Positions 3,148-43,050 of a stretch of DNA of 43,050 nt are shown piece after piece. Origin of the DNA: Bermanella sp. WJH001. Lineage in GTDB: Bacteria > Pseudomonadota > Gammaproteobacteria > Pseudomonadales > Oceanobacteraceae. The notes under the pieces were generated by a model, which worked only from the letters and a program-made list of their open reading frames with translations, did no database searches and was not told the DNA's origin. How positions within the stretch are numbered: the first letter of the stretch is position 1; each line of letters begins with the position of its first letter. Location of the stretch: positions 1 to 43,050 of the forward strand of contig NZ_JASJOO010000003.1 in the NCBI RefSeq assembly GCF_030070105.1, given 5' to 3'. Made by a program: the position numbers and the translations under genes.

Positions 3148-4038
3148 TTATTGCTTTAACCAGTCTTCGCTGACCTGCCAAAACGCATTTACTAGGGGGT
3201 GACTCATGTGCTGATTCACCACGCACAAGCCTACCGAAAAGGGCTCTAAACTAGGGGTGATACTAAGTACTTTCACTTTTTCAGCGATGGGGCTATTGGT
3301 TAATACCAGCTCAGGCACAACCCCAACACCAAAACCAAGGGCCACCATAGACACAATGGCCTCATTGCCTGAGACCTGTCCGTAAATATTTGGTTTTATG
3401 CCTTGTTGTTTAAACCAGCGTTCAACCCTAACACGCCCAAGCCCTTGCTCAGACAAGATCATGGGCACGTTCTGCCAGTTAATACTTGTTTCAGCCAAAG
3501 CATCGGCCACCGGCCCAGGCTGATTCGGTGCTATGAAAGCTAATGGCACCTGGGTCACTGGTTTAAATGATAGCCGAGGCGATAGTTGATCGGGCCGAGC
3601 TGCAATAGCAATATCGACCTCTCCGTTGAGAGCCATATCAACCGCTTGCGCCGCGTCACCAGTACGCAGCCGAATATCCACTTTAGGGTGGCGCTCACGA
3701 AACGCCCTTAATAAGTCGGATAAAAAGCTGTAACTCGCTGTTACCGTACAATACAAACTCAGCTCACCTTGCAACTCACTGGCTTGGGTATGCAATTGAC
3801 GCTGAAATTGCTGGTATTGCTCTAAGGTGCGTAAGGCAAACTCTTTAAACTCAGCCCCAGCTTGGGTTAAGCGCACATCTCGACGGTCCCGTTCAAACAA
3901 ACGCTGACCCACTTCTTCTTCTAGCTTTTGTACAACCCGAGAAATAGTCGAGGCCGATGTGTGGCATTTTTGTGCCGCTTGACCGTAATGCAGGGTGTCA
4001 GCGAGCACAATAAACTGAGATAAGTCTTTGAAATCCAT
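3148..4038 (-). CDS. ilvY: IlvY, LysR-family activator of ilvC
   Basis: This 296-residue LysR-type regulator has an N-terminal winged HTH (residues 1-60, with SASTISRVVQKLEEEVG) and a C-terminal effector domain. It is transcribed divergently from ilvC across a 157-bp intergenic region, the classical ilvY-ilvC arrangement. IlvY activates ilvC when acetolactate or acetohydroxybutyrate accumulates. Sequence character and context agree, so the assignment is firm. Its stop lies 94 bp from the pssA start. Confidence 0.92.
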   Translation of the reverse strand: MDFKDLSQFIVLADTLHYGQAAQKCHTSASTISRVVQKLEEEVGQRLFERDRRDVRLTQAGAEFKEFALRTLEQYQQFQRQLHTQASELQGELSLYCTVTASYSFLSDLLRAFRERHPKVDIRLRTGDAAQAVDMALNGEVDIAIAARPDQLSPRLSFKPVTQVPLAFIAPNQPGPVADALAETSINWQNVPMILSEQGLGRVRVERWFKQQGIKPNIYGQVSGNEAIVSMVALGFGVGVVPELVLTNSPIAEKVKVLSITPSLEPFSVGLCVVNQHMSHPLVNAFWQVSEDWLKQ

Positions 4039-4085
4039 TTATATATACCTGCTATATAAGCAGCAAGAGAATATAAATGGATTAT

Positions 4086-4102
4086 ATTGCATTTTCTGCA
4101 AT
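4086..4102. promoter_or_regulatory. Candidate IlvY operator in the ilvY-ilvC intergenic region
   Basis: A perfect dyad, ATTGCA (4086-4091) and TGCAAT (4097-4102) with a 5-bp spacer, sits between the divergent starts. LysR-type regulators bind such TTGC-N-GCAA sites. A second, GC-flanked dyad (GCG TTTTA CGC) follows near 4119-4130. Binding is inferred from position and symmetry. Confidence 0.55.
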
Positions 4103-4195
4103 AAGCTATTTCAAATATAGCGTTTTACGCAACAGCGTTTTTTGCCTACACTGCACGGGATTTTTACATATCCACTCATTGATAGGAGTCACCCC

Positions 4196-5686
4196 ATGGG
4201 TCAGAACTACTTCAACACTCTAAATTTACGCGAGCAACTAGACCAACTTGGTCGTTGTCGTTTCATGGACCGCAGCGAATTCGCTAACGGTTGTGAAGCG
4301 CTTAAAGGCAAAAAAGTTGTGATCATCGGTTGTGGTGCACAAGGCCTTAACCAAGGTCTTAACATGCGTGACTCTGGTCTAGACGTTTCTTACGCATTGC
4401 GTGAAGCGGCCATCACTGAAAAGCGTCAGTCTTGGAAAAACGCCACAGACAACGGTTTCACTGTTGGTACTTACCAAGAATTGGTTCCAACTGCTGACCT
4501 AGTATGTAACCTAACACCTGACAAGCAGCACACTGATGCAGTTACTACTGTTATGCCGCTTATGAAAAAAGGCGCAACCCTAGGTTACTCTCACGGTTTC
4601 AATATCGTTGAAGAAGGCATGCAAATCCGTGAAGACTTAACTGTCATCATGGTTGCACCTAAGTGCCCAGGTTCTGAAGTACGTGAAGAATACAAGCGTG
4701 GCTTTGGTGTTCCGACTCTTATGGCGGTTCACCCAGAGAACGATCCTGAAGGTAAGGGTCATGAACAAGCTAAAGCTTGGGCGTCTGCCACTGGTGGCGA
4801 CCGTGCTGGTGTTCTAGAAAGCTCTTTCGTTGCTGAAGTGAAATCTGACCTTATGGGCGAGCAAACTATCCTTTGCGGTATGTTGCAAACTGGCGCCATC
4901 CTAGGTTATGAAAAAATGGTTGCTGACGGCATCGATGGCCCATACGCTGCCAAACTAATTCAGTTCGGTTGGGAAACGGTAACTGAAGCACTGAAAATCG
5001 GCGGCATCACTAACATGATGGATCGTCTATCTAACCCAGCTAAAATCAAAGCGTTTGATATGGCTGATGATCTTAAAGTGCTAATGCGTCCATTGTTCCG
5101 CAAGCACCAAGACGACATCATGACCGGCGAATTCTCTCGCACCATGATGGAAGACTGGGCGAACGACGATGCGAACCTGCTAAAATGGCGTGAAGAAACC
5201 GCTGAAACTGGCTTCGAAAAAGAAGTAGCTTGTGATGTTGAAATTGACGAGCAAGAGTTCTTCGACAAAGGCATCATGCTTGTAGCGATGGTTAAAGCGG
5301 GCGTTGAGCTTGCATTCGAAACCATGGTTGAGTCTGGTATCGTTGAAGAGTCTGCATACTACGAATCTCTACACGAGACTCCACTAATTGCTAACACCAT
5401 CGCTCGTAAGAAACTTTACGAAATGAACGTGGTTATCTCTGATACTGCAGAATACGGTTGTTACTTGTTCTCTCACGCAGCGGTTCCATTGCTACGTGAA
5501 CAGTTCATGCCTAACATCACGACAGAAGTGATTGGTAAAGGTCTAAACCTTAAGTCTAACTCTGTAGACAACGCACGTTTAGTTGACGTTAACGAAGAAA
5601 TTCGTGAGCACCCAGTTGAGTGGGTTGGCCAAGAACTTCGTGGTTACATGACTGACATGAAGCGCATCGTAGAAGCATCTAAGTAA
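4196..5686 (+). CDS. ilvC: Ketol-acid reductoisomerase, class II (long form)
   Basis: IlvC carries out the NADPH- and Mg-dependent isomeroreduction in valine, isoleucine and leucine synthesis. The start is ATG 4196 with AGGAG 7 bases upstream. The ORF is open for 18 more codons, but the homologous N-terminus begins at [12 protein letters not shown]. The product is 496 residues, the enterobacterial long form with two knotted C-terminal domains. The Rossmann motif GCGAQG (about residues 46-51) and the metal-binding acidic stretches are intact. Codon use is strongly biased, as expected for a highly expressed gene. Its 3' end is the seed of the repeat array downstream. Confidence 0.97.
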
Positions 5687-5706
5687 TTCTTAGATAGCTA
5701 ATATCC

Positions 5707-5739
5707 AAAAGCCTAGGCAGTGATGTCTAGGCTTTTTTT
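5707..5739 (+). terminator. Native ilvC intrinsic terminator
   Basis: Inverted arms AAAAGCCTAGGC and GTCTAGGCTTTT (one G-U pair) are followed by a run of T. It lies 20 bp after the ilvC stop and is the first of five terminators. Confidence 0.92.
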
Positions 5740-5842
5740 GTTTCTAGACGGTCAAAAACACCACGTGGTTACATGACACTACTTAGACGAGCTTGAAACG
5801 TATCGTAGAAGCATCTAAGTAATTCTTAGATAGCTAATATCC

Positions 5843-5875
5843 AAAAGCCTAGGCAGTGATGCCTAGGCTTTTTTT
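5843..5875 (+). terminator. Array terminator 2 (type A)
   Basis: A perfect 12-bp stem, AAAAGCCTAGGC / GCCTAGGCTTTT, with loop AGTGAT and a T-run. It differs from the native terminator by one change that restores Watson-Crick pairing. Confidence 0.9.
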
Positions 5876-5980
5876 GTTTCTAGAAGGCCATATACCACGT
5901 GGTTACATGACACTACTTAGACGAGTTTGAAACGCATCGTAGAAGCATCTAAGTAATCATTATTTAAATAGCTACTACTC

Positions 5981-6012
5981 AAAAGCCCAAGTAGAAATAC
6001 TTGGGCTTTTTT
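5981..6012 (+). terminator. Array terminator 3 (type B)
   Basis: Stem AAAAGCCCAAGTA / TACTTGGGCTTTT closes on a GAAA tetraloop, followed by T residues. Its stem sequence differs from type A on both arms while pairing is kept. Confidence 0.9.
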
Positions 6013-6115
6013 ATTTCCCTATGTAATCAAGGTCAAAATGGATACATGACACTATTTAGACAGGCTTGAAACGTATCGTAGAAGCATCTAAGTAATTCTT
6101 AGATAGCTAATACTC

Positions 6116-6148
6116 AAAAGCCTAGGCAGTGATGCCTAGGCTTTTTTT
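6116..6148 (+). terminator. Array terminator 4 (type A)
   Basis: Same perfect stem and loop as terminator 2, with a T-run. It belongs to the second A-B dimer. Confidence 0.9.
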
Positions 6149-6253
6149 GTTTCTAGAAGGCCAAATACCCCGTGGTTACATGACACTACTTAGGCAAGCT
6201 TGAAACGTATCGTAGAAGCATCTAAATAATCATTATTTAAATAGCTAATACTC

Positions 6254-6285
6254 AAAAGCCTAAGTAGAAATACTTGGGCTTTTTT
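6254..6285 (+). terminator. Array terminator 5 (type B)
   Basis: Stem AAAAGCCTAAGTA / TACTTGGGCTTTT with a GAAA loop. One base change relative to terminator 3 turns a C-G pair into a U-G wobble, so the fold is retained. Confidence 0.88.
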
Positions 6286-6350
6286 GTTTCCCCATATGAT
6301 CAAGATCAAAATGGATACATGAGGCAATCTAAACAAACATGAAGAGTGTT

Positions 6351-6837
6351 ATTGAAAAATGACTAATACTTAATTATTAGCTAACAAAAATTATCCGCTT
6401 TTTTGTGCAGAATAAATACGTCCTTTTTCCGTCGATGCACACCTTACAAATTCAAAAAAACCACCCTCTAAAGTACGGCAATACCTTTCATGACTATAAA
6501 CCAATACAAATCGAAAATAAGTCATTTTATGCCAACTTTATCTTTTAAGTCGTTTTCTTACATACATTCAAATATGAACTCATATAATACTTGATATTAG
6601 CGAACCCCATAGCAGGGTCTGATTGGTTAGGTTATATACCTGATCGGTTGTACTTTGAAGTGTCACAAAACAGAAACAATAACATTTCTAAATAACAGAT
6701 CCTGCAAAGATAAACAGGCCATTTTTACTATTAATCGTAAAACGAGCGGCTAACATAAGCTGAATTTTAAAAATAAAAATGTAACACCCTAATCAAAAAG
6801 CTGGATGCACAAAATAATACCGAGCCAAAGGATTGAT
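6351..6837 (+). promoter_or_regulatory. Long AT-rich upstream region of the TonB2 operon
   Basis: No gene is supportable in these 487 bp. A consensus -10 TATAAT occurs at 6583-6588, with only a weak -35 about 18 bp upstream. Downstream are two direct repeats, TGATTGGTT (6620-6628) and TGATCGGTT (6641-6649), offset by exactly 21 bp. That is two helical turns, as in regulator sites bound on one face of DNA. I see no convincing Fur box. Which regulator is involved is unknown. Confidence 0.45.
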
Positions 6838-7629
6838 ATGCACATCATAACGCCACTCTGCCTGATAGTTAGTCTGTTTTTCATGGCTTCTGCTCATGCA
6901 GAGCAGAACCTTTTACAAGAAAGTTTCGACATCACTCATAAAACCCAAAAAATGGGACAAGACAGTCAGCAAGTGGTCGATAAACTTGCCAAACAACAGC
7001 AAGAATTACTACAGCAATATCAAAGATTGCTACGTAAAACAGAGTACCAAAAGGAATATAATCAAGAGCTACTTTTGTTAAAAGAAGAACAAGCAACCAG
7101 CATAGTGACACTTCAGCAAAAAATTGAAGACGTAAAATTAACTAAACAACAGCTATTACCCTTATTAAGGGAAATGACTAAAACACTAGAGCAGTTTATC
7201 CAACTAGACCTTCCTTTCCACAAAGAAAATCGCTTAATGGGTATCAATGACTTAAAAAAATTATTGAGCCGAAGCAGCGTCACTATTACTGAAAAATTTC
7301 GACGGGTCATGGCCTTTTATCAAGCCGAGAATGACTACAACTATGATCTAGAGGCTTACCGTGACAATATAATATTAAATAGCGAATCACGCTCTGAACA
7401 AATATTACGTGTCGGTAGAAATGCTCTGTATATGCAAACGCTTGATGGTCAATTAAGCGCCTTATGGAATAAAAATACGCAAGACTGGCAAATACTCAAT
7501 AATAACTTTAATCGCCCTATCCAAAAAGCAATCAGAATTACAGAACAAAAAGCAGCACCGAGCTTGTTAACTCTACCCTACTTAACATCCCTTGATCACT
7601 CATCAAATGAATTGAATAAAGGGGAATAA
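6838..7629 (+). CDS. DUF3450 family periplasmic protein of a TonB2-type system
   Basis: This 263-residue protein has a signal peptide (MHIITPLCLIVSLFFMASAHA) and a long glutamine/lysine-rich coiled coil (about residues 30-110). DUF3450 proteins typically open TtpC-exbB-exbD-tonB operons in marine gammaproteobacteria, where they are thought to assist the TonB complex in the periplasm. The start ATG 6838 has AAAGGA 7 bases upstream; an in-frame ATG at 6805 would add 11 polar residues ahead of the signal and lacks a site. The next gene begins 2 bp after its stop. Confidence 0.85.
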   Translation: MHIITPLCLIVSLFFMASAHAEQNLLQESFDITHKTQKMGQDSQQVVDKLAKQQQELLQQYQRLLRKTEYQKEYNQELLLLKEEQATSIVTLQQKIEDVKLTKQQLLPLLREMTKTLEQFIQLDLPFHKENRLMGINDLKKLLSRSSVTITEKFRRVMAFYQAENDYNYDLEAYRDNIILNSESRSEQILRVGRNALYMQTLDGQLSALWNKNTQDWQILNNNFNRPIQKAIRITEQKAAPSLLTLPYLTSLDHSSNELNKGE

Positions 7630-7631
7630 TA

Positions 7632-9059
7632 ATGAAAATTACTTTAACTCAGTTGATCATAATTTTTTTCCTATTCATCAAAAACAGTGCCTATGGCGAC
7701 ATATTAGACGACAAGGGCATTAAATCATTAGATGAGCTTTTAATAACCACTAAAAATCTGCAACAAAAAGAGCAGCTAATTTACAAAGAAAGAGAAGCTC
7801 GATTTCTACGTGAAAAGAATCAACAACAATTAATCGTTGATAACGCCAAGTCAGACTGGGAAAAACAACAAGCTATCGGCAACCCCCTTATAAAAGTTAC
7901 CCAAGATCAAAAAAGAAAGCTAGATGAACTACAAAAAGAGCTGGATAAACATGTGAGTGAACTCGGCGATATACATAGCTTATACAGCCAATTCAGCGGT
8001 GATTTTATCGCTCGCCTTCAAGATTCCTTAGTTCAAGCACAAATACCTGAGCGCCAAAAAAACCTAACAAAACTACAAGAAGGCCAAACACTCGCTAGTA
8101 TAAAAGATATGAAAACGCTATGGCTTCTGGTAATGACAGAAATGACAGAAGCTGGAAAAAACTCAACTTTTCAGGCAACGGTTGTTACCCCTGAAGGTAA
8201 AAGTTCTACACAAAACATAATACGCATGGGGACATTCAGTGCATTTTCGAATGGCCAGTTTTTACACTACATTCCTCAAAACCAAGAACTATTGGTCATT
8301 GCCGAGCAACCTAGTGAACATAGTTTAATCCAAGAATTTAGCTCAATAGCTTTAAATAATACAAACACTAAACAAAGTACGGAGCCTGTATTGAGTGTGA
8401 TTGATCCAACACGAGGTGAATTGCTTGCCCTACTTGGACAAAGCCCAAGTTTATATGAGCGATTACTACAGGGTAAAGAAGTAGGCTATGCCATTGTTAT
8501 ATTAGGTGCCATCGGAATATTCATCATTTTATATCGTTTAATATTCCTCGGAGTCGTTTGGAAAAAGACTAATATACAGCTGAACAATCTAGAAAATCCG
8601 AACAATGACAACCCATTAGGTCGTATTTTTTTACAAGTGAAAAGTATGAATCCAGAGCAACGACAAGATGATGAGAGTCTGCAACTGGTATTAGACGAAG
8701 CCATAATCAAAGAATTACCAAAGCTTGAACAAGGTCATAGCTTAATTAAACTATTTTCTGCTATTGCCCCTTTACTTGGACTACTTGGCACAGTGATCGG
8801 AATGATCGCAACGTTTCAGAGTATCAGTTTATTTGGCAGCGGTGATCCGAAATTAATGGCATCGGGAATCTCTCAAGCCTTAGTAACAACCGTACTAGGT
8901 TTATTGGTTGCAATACCATTATTGCTTGGCCACAACATACTTGTTTCATTCAGTAAAATATTATTGCAAATTCTCGATGAACAAAGTGCTGGTATATTAG
9001 CCAAAGAACGCGAGTCATCCCAAGGAATCTTCAATAAAGAAGAAGTCAAACATGCTTAA
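7632..9059 (+). CDS. TtpC-like MotA/TolQ/ExbB proton-channel protein with periplasmic N-terminal extension
   Basis: This 475-residue protein has a signal peptide, an N-terminal coiled-coil domain (about 30-105), a periplasmic region, a membrane segment near residues 282-305 (VGYAIVILGAIGIFIILYRL) and a C-terminal ExbB/TolQ domain with APLLGLLGTVIGMIATF. That layout matches TtpC, which Vibrio TonB2 systems require in addition to ExbB2. It follows the DUF3450 gene by 2 bp, and its last 8 bases overlap the next gene (ATGCTTAA). I use no symbol because orthology was not tested. Confidence 0.88.
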   Translation: MKITLTQLIIIFFLFIKNSAYGDILDDKGIKSLDELLITTKNLQQKEQLIYKEREARFLREKNQQQLIVDNAKSDWEKQQAIGNPLIKVTQDQKRKLDELQKELDKHVSELGDIHSLYSQFSGDFIARLQDSLVQAQIPERQKNLTKLQEGQTLASIKDMKTLWLLVMTEMTEAGKNSTFQATVVTPEGKSSTQNIIRMGTFSAFSNGQFLHYIPQNQELLVIAEQPSEHSLIQEFSSIALNNTNTKQSTEPVLSVIDPTRGELLALLGQSPSLYERLLQGKEVGYAIVILGAIGIFIILYRLIFLGVVWKKTNIQLNNLENPNNDNPLGRIFLQVKSMNPEQRQDDESLQLVLDEAIIKELPKLEQGHSLIKLFSAIAPLLGLLGTVIGMIATFQSISLFGSGDPKLMASGISQALVTTVLGLLVAIPLLLGHNILVSFSKILLQILDEQSAGILAKERESSQGIFNKEEVKHA

Positions 9060-9606
9060 CGAATCACTAATTGTTTTATTTCAACAATTTTTTGAACAAG
9101 GTGGGAACATTATCCCCGCTTTATTTCTGTTAGCGCTAATTTTATGGACTCTCATCATAGAGCGTTTTTATTTTATTAAAGTAACTTATCCAAAGCTGTC
9201 GAAACATCAAATAAACAGCTGGTCCATAAGAGAAGATAAGCAGTCTTGGAATGCACATAAAATTCGAGAACAGCTCATCTCAAAAAATAATGCTCAATTA
9301 CACCTATGGTTATCTAGCATCAAAGTCTTGATTGCGATCTGTCCGCTGCTAGGTTTGCTCGGAACGGTAAGTGGAATGGTGACAGTATTTGATGTAATTG
9401 CAGTAACAGGAAACAGTAACGCCAGGGCCATGAGTTCTGGTATCTATAAAGCCACACTACCCACCATGGTTGGATTGTGTTTGGCATTATCTGCATTGTA
9501 TTTTAGTCACAACATTAAACAATTAGTACTGAAACACAGCGCCCAATTTGAAGACAGATTAAACGTCCGAAAAAATACACCTCAGCATTCACAGGGGGCT
9601 TTATGA
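9052..9606 (+). CDS. exbB: ExbB-type proton channel subunit
   Basis: A 184-residue MotA/TolQ/ExbB protein with three membrane segments: about residues 17-36, then the pair in CPLLGLLGTVSGMVTVF and LPTMVGLCLALSALYF. With ExbD it converts the proton gradient into work on TonB. It is shorter than enteric ExbB (about 244 residues), as is usual for exbB2-type genes paired with TtpC. The start overlaps the preceding gene by 8 bp and the end overlaps exbD by 4 bp (ATGA). Confidence 0.9.
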   Translation: MLNESLIVLFQQFFEQGGNIIPALFLLALILWTLIIERFYFIKVTYPKLSKHQINSWSIREDKQSWNAHKIREQLISKNNAQLHLWLSSIKVLIAICPLLGLLGTVSGMVTVFDVIAVTGNSNARAMSSGIYKATLPTMVGLCLALSALYFSHNIKQLVLKHSAQFEDRLNVRKNTPQHSQGAL

Positions 9607-10007
9607 GCACGCGTCGTCATCATGTTCAACAGGACGAAAGTGATTTAGATATCACCCCTATGCTGGATATTGTATTTATCATGCTTATCTTTTTTATTGT
9701 CACGACTTCATTTGTGAAAGAATCGGGCATCGAGGTAAATTCCCCCTCAGCGGTCACATCCGTGAATCAAGATAAAGCCAGTATCTTCATTGCCATCAAC
9801 GAAAATTCAGAGGTTTGGATTGATAAGCGACAAGTGGATATCACGACTGTACGAGCAATTATTGCACGGCTTCATACCAGCAACCCTGATGGTTCTGTGG
9901 TTATTCAAGCAGACAAACTTGTATCGGCCGATCAACTCATGACGGTAATGGATCAAGTTAGACAAGCCGGTGTTCATAACATTGCCTTGGCAGCGAAGAG
10001 TCAATAA
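9603..10007 (+). CDS. exbD: ExbD-type biopolymer transport protein
   Basis: A 134-residue protein with one N-terminal membrane helix carrying the proton-handling aspartate in the motif DITPMLDIVFIMLIFFIV, followed by a periplasmic domain. It partners the ExbB proteins encoded just upstream. The ATGA overlap with exbB and the TAATG overlap with tonB indicate coupled translation and fixed stoichiometry. Confidence 0.93.
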   Translation: MSTRRHHVQQDESDLDITPMLDIVFIMLIFFIVTTSFVKESGIEVNSPSAVTSVNQDKASIFIAINENSEVWIDKRQVDITTVRAIIARLHTSNPDGSVVIQADKLVSADQLMTVMDQVRQAGVHNIALAAKSQ

Positions 10008-10693
10008 TGCGTATAGTATTATCTTTATGTATATCTGTTTTTATCGTCATCTCATTATTTTATGTGATCATTGGCTTGATTCATCAAGATATCTCTTCTG
10101 TGGAAATAGAAGAAGAACTGGTACGGGTCAATATTGAAAATGTAAAAAAAGAAGCACATAAAGAAGAAACAAAACCTAGAAAAAAAACGCTCATAGAGCC
10201 AGAGCCAATTCTAAAAAGTGACATTAAGCCTAATCTTACTCAAAAATCTAACAACTCAAATCAACCATTCATTAACTTAAGTGGTGCTAAAACGGAATTT
10301 CAATTTCAATCGAAAGACATGCCAAAGTTTCAAGAAAACTGGGTTCAACCGAACACATCCGCCCAAGCAGACGCAGAAGCATTAGGCGAAAGCATTGGCG
10401 ATAACCCTGAAACATTACGAAAAGTCATCCCCATTAGTACTCGACAACCTCAGATCCCTAAAATTGCATGGGAAAATAAAATCAATGGCTGGGTGTTGGT
10501 GTCATTAGAGGTGAAGCCTTCAGGTCGCACTGAAAATATACAAGTTGTAGATGCCTCCCCTAGAGGTGTATTTGAAGATGAAGCGGTAGCAGCCGTTAGC
10601 AGTTGGTTATATGAATCATCTAAAGGGGGAAATCGCAGGTTGCTACAAAACATTGAATTTCAATGGAAGAATTACCCATACAACTGGGAATAA
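10007..10693 (+). CDS. tonB: TonB family energy transducer
   Basis: The 228-residue protein has a single N-terminal membrane anchor (residues 4-26), a Lys/Glu/Pro-rich spacer (about 40-75, KKEAHKEETKPRKK) and a C-terminal TonB fold (about 140-225, with VKPSGRTENIQVVDASP and DEAVAAVSSW). It spans the periplasm and pulls on outer-membrane receptors. The spacer is short for a TonB, as in other TonB2 systems. No receptor is encoded in the operon; the nearest TonB-dependent receptor starts 15 kb away. Confidence 0.9.
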   Translation: MRIVLSLCISVFIVISLFYVIIGLIHQDISSVEIEEELVRVNIENVKKEAHKEETKPRKKTLIEPEPILKSDIKPNLTQKSNNSNQPFINLSGAKTEFQFQSKDMPKFQENWVQPNTSAQADAEALGESIGDNPETLRKVIPISTRQPQIPKIAWENKINGWVLVSLEVKPSGRTENIQVVDASPRGVFEDEAVAAVSSWLYESSKGGNRRLLQNIEFQWKNYPYNWE

Positions 10694-41849: not shown

Positions 41850-42734
41850 ATGAATATTCAAGCCGTAGAAAAATCCGCCTTACCCGAGCCACAAGATATC
41901 ATCATTGAAACTCAAAACGGGCGCAGAATAGGCGCACGTATTTTTAGAGCCAGCCACGCCACTTCGGTAGTCATTATTGCCGGAGCCATGGGTGTGGCTC
42001 AACATTGTTATGAAAAGTTTGCCAAGTTTTTAAACGACAACGGCCATCATGCGATTACCTTTGATTATTATGGTTATGGCCAATCAATCCATAAACACGT
42101 TAAACACTGCGATACCGATATTTTAGAGTGGGGGCAACAAGACTGTCACGCGGTGATTCAATATGCCAAAAACCATTTTAATCATGTGCCTGTGCAATGG
42201 ATTGGTCACAGTGTTGGCGGGCAACTCATGGGCATGACACCGAACTTTAATCAAATAACAAACGCCGTGACCGTTGCCTGTGGCAGTGGTTATTGGCGTG
42301 AAAACTCACCGCCAACAAAACGCATTGTTTGGCTGGTATGGTATTTTTTAACGCCTGCATTGGTGTCATTTTTGGGATACTTTCCGGGTAAAAAACTCAA
42401 CATCGTTGGTAATTTACCTGGGCGAGTCATGTGGCAATGGCGACGCTGGGCATTAAACAAAGATTATGCCGTTGGCGCTGAAGGTGAAGCGATGCAGTCA
42501 CAATTTGATAGTGTCAAGGTACCGATTACATCCCTTTCGTTTAGTGACGATGAAATGATGTCCAAAGAAAATATTGATTCACTACACAGTTTTTATCGAG
42601 GATCAGATGTCACCATGATTCGGGTAACAGCTGAGCAATTAGGTGAACGTTTTGTGGGGCATTTAGGCTGGTTTCGTGAAAAGTTCAAAGATTCCATTTG
42701 GGCTGGGCAGATTTTGCCATTGTTAGAACGTTAA
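41850..42734 (+). CDS. Alpha/beta hydrolase
   Basis: The protein is 294 residues. The nucleophile elbow is GHSVGG (Ser121); a candidate acid lies in SFSDDEM, and the C-terminal His in RFVGHLGWF completes the triad. The oxyanion region VVIIAGAMGVAQHCYEKFA precedes. A hydrophobic lid segment (WLVWYFLTPALVSFLGYF) suggests a lipid-like substrate, not identifiable here. AGGA lies 7 bases before the ATG. The last 22 codons are duplicated downstream in a tandem array. Confidence 0.88.
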   Translation: MNIQAVEKSALPEPQDIIIETQNGRRIGARIFRASHATSVVIIAGAMGVAQHCYEKFAKFLNDNGHHAITFDYYGYGQSIHKHVKHCDTDILEWGQQDCHAVIQYAKNHFNHVPVQWIGHSVGGQLMGMTPNFNQITNAVTVACGSGYWRENSPPTKRIVWLVWYFLTPALVSFLGYFPGKKLNIVGNLPGRVMWQWRRWALNKDYAVGAEGEAMQSQFDSVKVPITSLSFSDDEMMSKENIDSLHSFYRGSDVTMIRVTAEQLGERFVGHLGWFREKFKDSIWAGQILPLLER

Positions 42735-43050
42735 ACAGCGCAACACATTTCAACCGTGCATTAACCTAAAGTGGATTCCCGCCTTCGCGGGAAAGACGCT
42801 TTAAAATATCTGTACGAGGGTGGTTTCGTGAAAAGTTCAAAAATTCCATTTGGCCACGGCAAATTTTACCGCTGTTAGAAGGTTAAACAGCGCAACACAT
42901 TTCTACGCTTCATTAACCTAAAATGGATTCCCGCCTTCGCGGGAAAGACGCTTTAAAATATCTGTACGAGGGTGGTTTCGTGAAAAGTTCAAAAATTCCA
43001 TTTGGCCACGGCAAATTTTACCGCTGTTAGAAGGTTAAACAGCGCAACAC
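42669..43050 (+). repeat. Tandem array echoing the hydrolase 3' end, 152-bp units (continues past the window)
   Basis: Units start at 42669 (inside the gene), 42821 and 42973, exactly 152 bp apart; the third is cut by the window edge. Each has the codons for WFREKFK.SIW..QILPLLE., a TAA stop, the block TAAACAGCGCAACACATTTC, and a hairpin TTCCCGC-CTTC-GCGGGAA (42776-42793, 42928-42945). Units 2 and 3 are identical over the visible part. They differ from unit 1 partly by synonymous changes (CAG/CAA, TTG/TTA, CCA/CCG, TTG/CTG) and partly by replacements (D to N, AG to PR, final R to G). No other gene lies in 42735-43050. Confidence 0.95.

Follow-up and report, generated by a model that had tools for sequence, protein, structure and literature searches.

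Tandem ilvC 3' ends in Bermanella sp. WJH001 and related arrays of gene ends with intrinsic terminators

In a 43,050-nt stretch of the Bermanella sp. WJH001 genome (the window), the 3' end of the ketol-acid reductoisomerase gene ilvC is multiplied in tandem behind the gene. A unit of the array comprises the coding end, a stop-codon-spanning hairpin and an intrinsic terminator; its successor begins within 10 nt past the T-run of that terminator. The same plan recurs in the host at glnA, at fusA and, as a single copy, at a ferredoxin gene, and it is also found at the glnA of other genera. A terminator has been retained in most of the recognisable copies, some of them with one unlike that of the gene. 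The explanation that we tentatively prefer is that these are old, maintained tandem duplications of transcript 3' ends, which may act as redundant terminator modules.

Results

Anatomy of the ilvC array

Repeat searches and TRF bore out the earlier note on this DNA, which had described the terminal ilvC codons (KRIVEASK and stop), the linker and the terminator as recurring four more times, with a degenerate sixth start. The stop codons end at 5686 in the gene and at 5822, 5956, 6095 and 6229 in the copies, with spacings of 136, 134, 139 and 134 nt (features in Table 1). The units follow the order A-A-B-A-B, in which copies 2-3 and 4-5 form a 273-nt super-unit; TRF reported periods of 134 (4.6 copies) and 273 (2.0 copies), and the repeat search found two 273-nt copies that are 93% alike. 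In their 3' parts, B and A units differ by 19-24% within this genome. The ilvC end does recur, as had been claimed, but copies 2-5 do not simply repeat the coding end: about 16 other bases replace 5 between YMT and KRIVE (net +11), and the frame is shifted. The delimitation of the units also needed a correction, their boundary lying at or a few bases past the terminator T-run and not at the coding start. Elsewhere in the genome there is a single 39-nt match and no second ilvC end, and the units are not dispersed.

A terminator scan found seven sites, against 0.8 (s.d. 1.0) expected in shuffled sequences; five belong to the ilvC units and two are weak sites on the minus strand. A GC-containing stem-loop followed by a T-run, our definition of an intrinsic terminator, is present in all five ilvC units. 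Types A and B indeed keep their terminator stems despite different stem sequences, and the U-G wobble reported for one B unit is found in unit 5, where unit 3 has C-G; unit 1, of type A, also has a G-U pair. The second stem, across the ilvC stop codon, was absent from the earlier description.

Table 1. Features of the ilvC array and its surroundings, in window coordinates
Feature	Position	Strand	Basis or remark
ilvC (ketol-acid reductoisomerase), parent gene	4196..5686	+	ORF; Pfam KARI_N 2.9e-56, KARI_C 4e-40
Unit 1, type A: ilvC coding end, stop codon, linker, terminator to T-run end	5627..5739	+	
Unit 2, type A copy	5740..5875	+	T-run ends; 97% to unit 1 (coding end, UTR and terminator)
Unit 3, type B copy	5876..6012	+	Sequence comparison, T-run ends
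Unit 4, type A copy	6013..6148	+	Sequence comparison, T-run ends
Unit 5, type B copy	6149..6285	+	95% to unit 3 over 3' part
Degenerate start of a sixth unit, without terminator	6286..6360 (recognisable ~6298-6360)	+	By eye; weak repeat-search match
Copy-specific replacement, unit 2 (16 nt vs 5 in gene)	5778..5793	+	Homologous in units 3-5 and in copies of relative G002
Stop-codon-spanning hairpin, unit 1 (AUCUAAG/CUUAGAU)	5677..5695	+	
Stop-hairpin equivalents, units 2-5	5813-5831, 5950-5966 (B), 6086-6104, 6223-6239 (B)	+	
Intrinsic terminator 1	5707..5736	+	13-bp stem, one G-U, T7
Intrinsic terminator 2	5843..5872	+	
Intrinsic terminator 3	5981..6010	+	B stem
Intrinsic terminator 4	6116..6145	+	
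Intrinsic terminator 5	6254..6283	+	B stem, U-G wobble
Downstream same-strand genes: DUF3450, two ExbB-type, ExbD, TonB	6805..10693	+	Target of any ilvC read-through

ilvC arrays in relatives

The host genome (G000; 3.6 Mb, 6 contigs) was compared within its own genus, represented by nine genomes (G000-G008). Copies of the ilvC end occur in five of the eight own-genus species in which that end was seen (G000, G001, G002, G003 and G007): G002 has the gene and two copies, G007 has two ends, and the arrays of G001 and G003 are decayed. No copies were found in G005, G006 and G008, and ilvC itself was not found in G004. Uniform scoring gave copies at four of seven own-genus ends and in none of 30 species of other genera (G003, where a contig end cuts the gene, is outside this set). 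The ilvC arrays are therefore dispensable, being absent in three of eight congeners and in all 30 other-genus species. Among 103 ilvC ends from the family and other gammaproteobacteria, a set with eight unreadable loci, a clear copy was present only at four own-genus ends; four other ends scored 1-2 points above their own shuffles, at least 600 nt downstream.

The worry that the array might be an assembly artefact has been removed, because independent assemblies share ilvC copies with the same copy-specific sequence. Inspected by eye, the copies of G001, G003 and G007 have intact terminators unlike that of the gene. The downstream neighbours of ilvC differ between congeners (by eye). Palindromic insert-like segments of about 130 nt were also seen by eye inside the G003 ilvC copy and in the G008 ilvC 3' UTR (L016/L159, L008); in G008, what follows the segment is the terminator sequence of the window's B units.

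glnA arrays across the family

The glnA end was examined in 38 of 44 family genomes, and copies were scored in 11 of these 38 species, which belong to five genera (four of seven species in the own genus, seven of 31 in four other genera). G003 (below score) and G006 (outside the scored set) have additional copies recognised by eye. Scored copies number five in G058 and one to four elsewhere. Fourteen species from the order's other families gave no glnA copies (five more were unreadable and two had no match at the threshold). By alignment, a copy-specific stretch is common to G032 and G016, from two other genera, and the own genus, and is not shared by the G064 copy. On the simplest reading, the glnA array would predate the genera of G032 and G016 and the own genus, with transfer between genera as the alternative.

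The glnA terminator of G006 and G003 stands behind the copy, and the terminator scan found no gene-proximal one in either genome (both by eye in G003). This arrangement fits the prediction of redundancy. The glnA copies of G007 and G032 carry intact terminators that, by eye, are unlike the gene's.

Arrays behind other host genes

A sample of 1.16 Mb (32%) of the host genome, with 990 ORF ends, was scanned for coding-end copies close downstream. Seven ends have a copy that reaches the stop, namely those of ilvC, fusA, glnA, the ferredoxin gene, an ORF ending at 42734 and two others; five further rows were duplicate, array-internal, distant or partial. The fusA array has a period of 167 and 3.3 copies (L168 18480-19060), the glnA array a period of 141 and 4.6 copies (L240 8740-9480), and the ferredoxin gene (Fer4 + DUF3470) two ends, i.e. 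one copy (L300 ~5490-5840, minus strand). Every unit of the ilvC, fusA, glnA and ferredoxin arrays has an intrinsic terminator, except for decayed last units. Copies of fusA occur in two of seven own-genus species (by eye also in G001, degenerate) and in none of 20 others. Applied to 353 ends of G005, the scan returned two rows, one of which is a 500-nt duplication and the other partial; applied to 355 ends of G019, it returned three that are weak or partial, among them one of low complexity.

Codon adaptation served as a proxy for expression. Among 855 host genes, ilvC ranks 8th, fusA 9th and glnA 11th, in one genome and for three genes, against a reference of the top 25 that was grown from two EF-Tu-like ORFs and includes these three genes themselves. 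The other three ranked genes with end duplications stand at 109th, 653rd and 790th.

The window holds a second gene-end array, at 42665-43050 and on to ~43370 of the contig (L165 665-1370), with a period of 152 and at least 2.5 copies; this array and one other in L165 border N-gaps, which makes their copy numbers uncertain. Its unit comprises the last 70 nt of the alpha/beta-hydrolase-like ORF that ends at 42734 and the hairpin TTCCCGCCTTCGCGGGAA, which is dispersed in the genus. Long tandem arrays with a period of at least 60 number 21 in the 1.16 Mb of the host (20 if two pieces next to the same N-gap are counted together), compared with 3 in G005 and 2 in G019 per ~0.4 Mb. Long hairpin repeat arrays flank small ORFs at L165 4494-5957 and L227 14212-15524; from their motif, we take these ORFs to resemble REP-associated transposases, and a Pfam scan of the L165 ORF gave no match at 1e-5. 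A GCGGGAA-palindrome array has 17 of its 22 G005 matches within 85 kb (G005:C1 ~1390000-1475000), possibly a repeat-rich island or an integron-like array.

RNA structures

At the ilvC stop codon, the folding z averages -2.37 in 30 family loci (one of them, L016, a mis-set end) and -0.47 in 68 loci outside the family; the mean for 35 ORF ends of the window, with ilvC among them, is -0.006. When 3' UTRs were swapped between species, native combinations paired better than swapped ones for ilvC (37 species; -10.76 vs -7.56 kcal/mol), glnA (25 species; -8.38 vs -6.67 kcal/mol) and fusA (27 species; -10.87 vs -7.11 kcal/mol), each with 0 of 2000 permutations. With one ilvC per genus, the mean p was 0.0009. 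The controls were silent: ilvY ends (29 species) gave 552 of 2000, and segments from +22 to +44 gave 316, 1827 and 1824 of 2000. This covariation between coding end and UTR supports a predicted stop-codon-spanning hairpin in ilvC, glnA and fusA, from the last codons to about +22, throughout the family. Stop-spanning hairpins are not general among host ORFs: a z below -2 at the stop was reached by 9.7% of the 176 terminator-bearing ORFs and by 8.5% of the 669 that lack one. Palindromes around the stop, with z of -1.8 and -2.1, were also seen in two EF-Tu-like genes (L168 19189, L233 15994; identified by eye).

In a census of 35 scored copies at 22 loci, 31 are followed by a terminator, a figure that favours well-kept copies since they were picked by coding-end likeness, with five of the 22 loci giving no copy at the score. 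One of the 31, behind fusA copy 4, precedes a convergent EF-Tu-like gene and was assigned to that gene by position and strand, which leaves 30. Last array units are often truncated or lack terminators. The suggestion that RNA structure is conserved, made from the window alone, gains from these 30 of 35 pairing terminators and from the family-wide covariation of the stop hairpin with the 3' UTR.

The 5' part of the copies has a candidate hairpin of its own. In seven glnA copies, from G064, G032, G016, G058 and G062 of other genera and from G006 and G003 (G022 and G012 were left out), its arms fit each other better when both come from the same species than when they are swapped between species (28 of 20000 permutations). 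The same swap test on four own-genus glnA copies gave 6626 of 20000 and no support. Together with a mean z of -0.51 in 19 own-genus copies (ilvC, glnA, fusA and ferredoxin), against -1.02 in ten gene segments, this led us to reject a copy-specific hairpin in own-genus copies. Of 14 other-genus copies, 12 have z between -1.5 and -4.5 and two lie at +0.63 and -0.73. All eleven glnA copies together gave 0 of 20000, a result that base composition may inflate.

Evolution of units and junctions

The 5' parts of the glnA copies are 64-82% alike across species and 47-66% alike to the genes. For their 3' parts (coding end, UTR and terminator), identity is 94-100% inside each of G000, G002 and G008, as against 64-85% between species; the exception is G007, with 80% within the species. 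Since the 3' parts are alike within species and divergent between them, the glnA copies stay in step with the gene end. Judged by these identities, the glnA array is old and, in three of the four species compared, evolves in concert with the gene end through gene conversion or unequal exchange. Homogenisation seems to reach only to the point beyond which exchange would damage the gene.

The 5' parts of the ilvC copies are 78-82% alike between G000 and G002 and 47-52% alike to the genes. The type A 3' parts are 94-97% alike between these two species, the same as within each, and the two ilvC ends of G007 are 65% alike. Homogenisation is not shown at ilvC, and we would limit concerted evolution to glnA. 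At 4-fold sites, genes upstream of ilvC differ by 50-68% between G000 and G002, G007 or G008, ordinary genes by 50-74% even within the genus, and ilvC and glnA themselves by 16-30%. The ilvY-ilvC intergenic identity to G000 is at shuffle level in G002 (48 vs 51%) and 59-63% in G007 and G008. The species are thus far apart and their arrays old. Third positions of ilvC differ between G000 and G002 in 84 of 400 codons, as against 12 of 97 at the 3' end. We do not claim purifying selection on the ilvC copies from their 94-97% identity, since this drop allows a later exchange; an exchange of the ilvC gene end between the two lineages is possible.

In right-anchored alignments, homology to the coding sequence starts 0 nt after the T-run in glnA (G000), 2 nt in ilvC (G001; G003 against the G006 coding end) and 3 nt in the ferredoxin gene; the offset is 6-16 nt in other copies and 22 nt in fusA. 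This suggests that the founding duplications may have ended at the point where transcription ends, a lead from four loci and not a proof.

Discussion

Under the preferred explanation of redundant termination, genes with very strong transcription would undergo duplication close to their termination point, and the units would be retained because each one terminates and structures whatever RNA has passed the terminator before it, giving redundant, insulating termination. For the ilvC array, fail-safe termination is the best reading of a role that is predicted and unproven. Several points weaken it. Five or more units exceed the need for termination, since two or three strong terminators in a row should suffice to stop nearly all transcription; terminator preservation could be largely passive, via gene conversion from the gene's own end; and the ilvC arrays, as noted, are dispensable. 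A bolder version, possible but somewhat doubtful in our judgement, is that 3' ends of some of the family's most strongly expressed genes have repeatedly founded multi-copy non-coding RNA modules that are structured, selected and linked by conversion and form a graded cascade of termination and RNA release behind glnA, ilvC and fusA. The copies would then no longer be gene copies but modules of a copy-specific 5' part, a stop hairpin and a terminator.

The main rival, which we think rather unlikely, is an array of 3'-UTR-type small RNAs: units would be processed from ilvC or glnA read-through RNA and act in trans, and additional copies would raise dosage or vary the targets. Its precedent is GlnZ, an Hfq- and RNase E-dependent sRNA from the glnA 3' UTR in Enterobacteriaceae (PMC9731577). 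A hairpin followed by a terminator with a U-tail is also an sRNA-like layout, and OmrA-B matches were found in the window at 3500-7000, all below the Rfam gathering score of 40 (30.2 and 28.1 bits, in units 2 and 4, and 21.3 bits). However, a consensus scan found no promoter-like site on the + strand in 5500-6900, so that downstream units would rely on read-through of strong terminators; the GlnZ seed UUGCCGUGGAAA has no exact match in 415 loci; and no common unpaired seed was noticed by eye, with A and B units differing in their 3' parts as described. The copy-specific hairpin argues both ways, pairing better within species in the seven glnA copies and giving no such signal in the four own-genus ones. 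Neutral amplification, in which strong transcription and hairpins favour end duplication and drifting copies still look intact owing to unequal exchange with the gene end, itself under selection, is to our mind unlikely. It agrees with the homogenisation at glnA, with last units that are truncated or terminator-less, with presence that varies among congeners and with a host rich in other long tandem arrays. It would account for homogenisation and for changing copy numbers, yet not for the fact that intact, non-homogenised terminators persist, nor for a glnA copy-specific stretch still recognisable in three genera (G032, G016 and own) despite the divergence of 4-fold sites within the genus.

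Two further origins seem very improbable. Gene 3' ends are classic attachment sites, and the arrays could be attachment-site copies left by site-specific integrating elements, as the differing neighbours downstream of ilvC would allow. But the host has no second ilvC end beyond the one short match, a scan of 13 window proteins (with 20 more of its ORFs left aside) found no integrase, the unit ends track the terminator, and the same plan recurs at four unrelated genes. Equally far-fetched is an RNA-templated origin, in which cDNA of abundant mRNA 3' ends, made from the transcript end, was re-inserted beside the gene. Several units end at a T-run, and codon adaptation is among the highest for three of the genes, as this would have it, yet in-register tandem insertion is not expected from cDNA, and the reverse transcriptase family PF00078 is unmatched in seven of nine genus genomes, G000 included (some are incomplete drafts).

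In a literature search, no ilvC, glnA or fusA 3'-end arrays were recognisable by title or start of abstract among the matches listed, most subscription papers being outside its scope. What looked like one odd repeat becomes a recurring class, in which gene ends multiply behind busy protein genes, are long-lived and, at glnA, coevolve with the gene. Similar arrays in related bacteria, behind further highly active genes such as glnA and fusA, suggest an RNA element that recurs and persists rather than an isolated oddity. They offer a natural system for the study of selection on layered termination and of gene conversion between a gene and its own 3' tail, and they bear on how mRNA ends may give rise to new non-coding RNAs. 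The stop-codon hairpin predicted for ilvC, glnA and fusA across the family is an RNA-structure finding in its own right, open to direct testing.

Comparison with known systems

Tandem (double) terminators place several intrinsic terminators in a row behind one gene, as is the case here; in the ilvC array, each additional terminator sits inside a gene-end copy. REP/BIME palindrome arrays likewise put tandem hairpins behind genes, and the host has such arrays elsewhere. They are dispersed genome-wide, whereas the ilvC units are not and carry gene-specific sequence.

The earlier note had drawn a parallel to the rtT repeats of E. coli (tyrT/tyrV, rttR). It holds for the layout, since in NC_000913 (L318), as in the ilvC array, tandem units start with the last bases of the upstream gene. 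It does not extend further: rtT has a tRNA-Tyr parent, a 178-nt spacing and no T-run of 5 or more, whereas the ilvC array has a protein-gene parent, a spacing of 134-139 nt and intrinsic terminators, and the 18 Rfam matches with E up to 5 in the window at 3500-7000 do not include rtT. The ilvC-type arrays are thus not members of rtT and resemble it in layout only. PMC2965389 places rtT-like elements among the BIMEs.

GlnZ and the glnA arrays both make an RNA module of the glnA coding end or 3' UTR with its intrinsic terminator. GlnZ comes from a single 3' UTR, with no downstream copies mentioned in the accessible text of PMC9731577, whereas the arrays described here are multi-copy and have no exact match to its seed. 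By analogy with GlnZ, arrays of protein-gene ends with intrinsic terminators are a possible source of 3' UTR RNAs.
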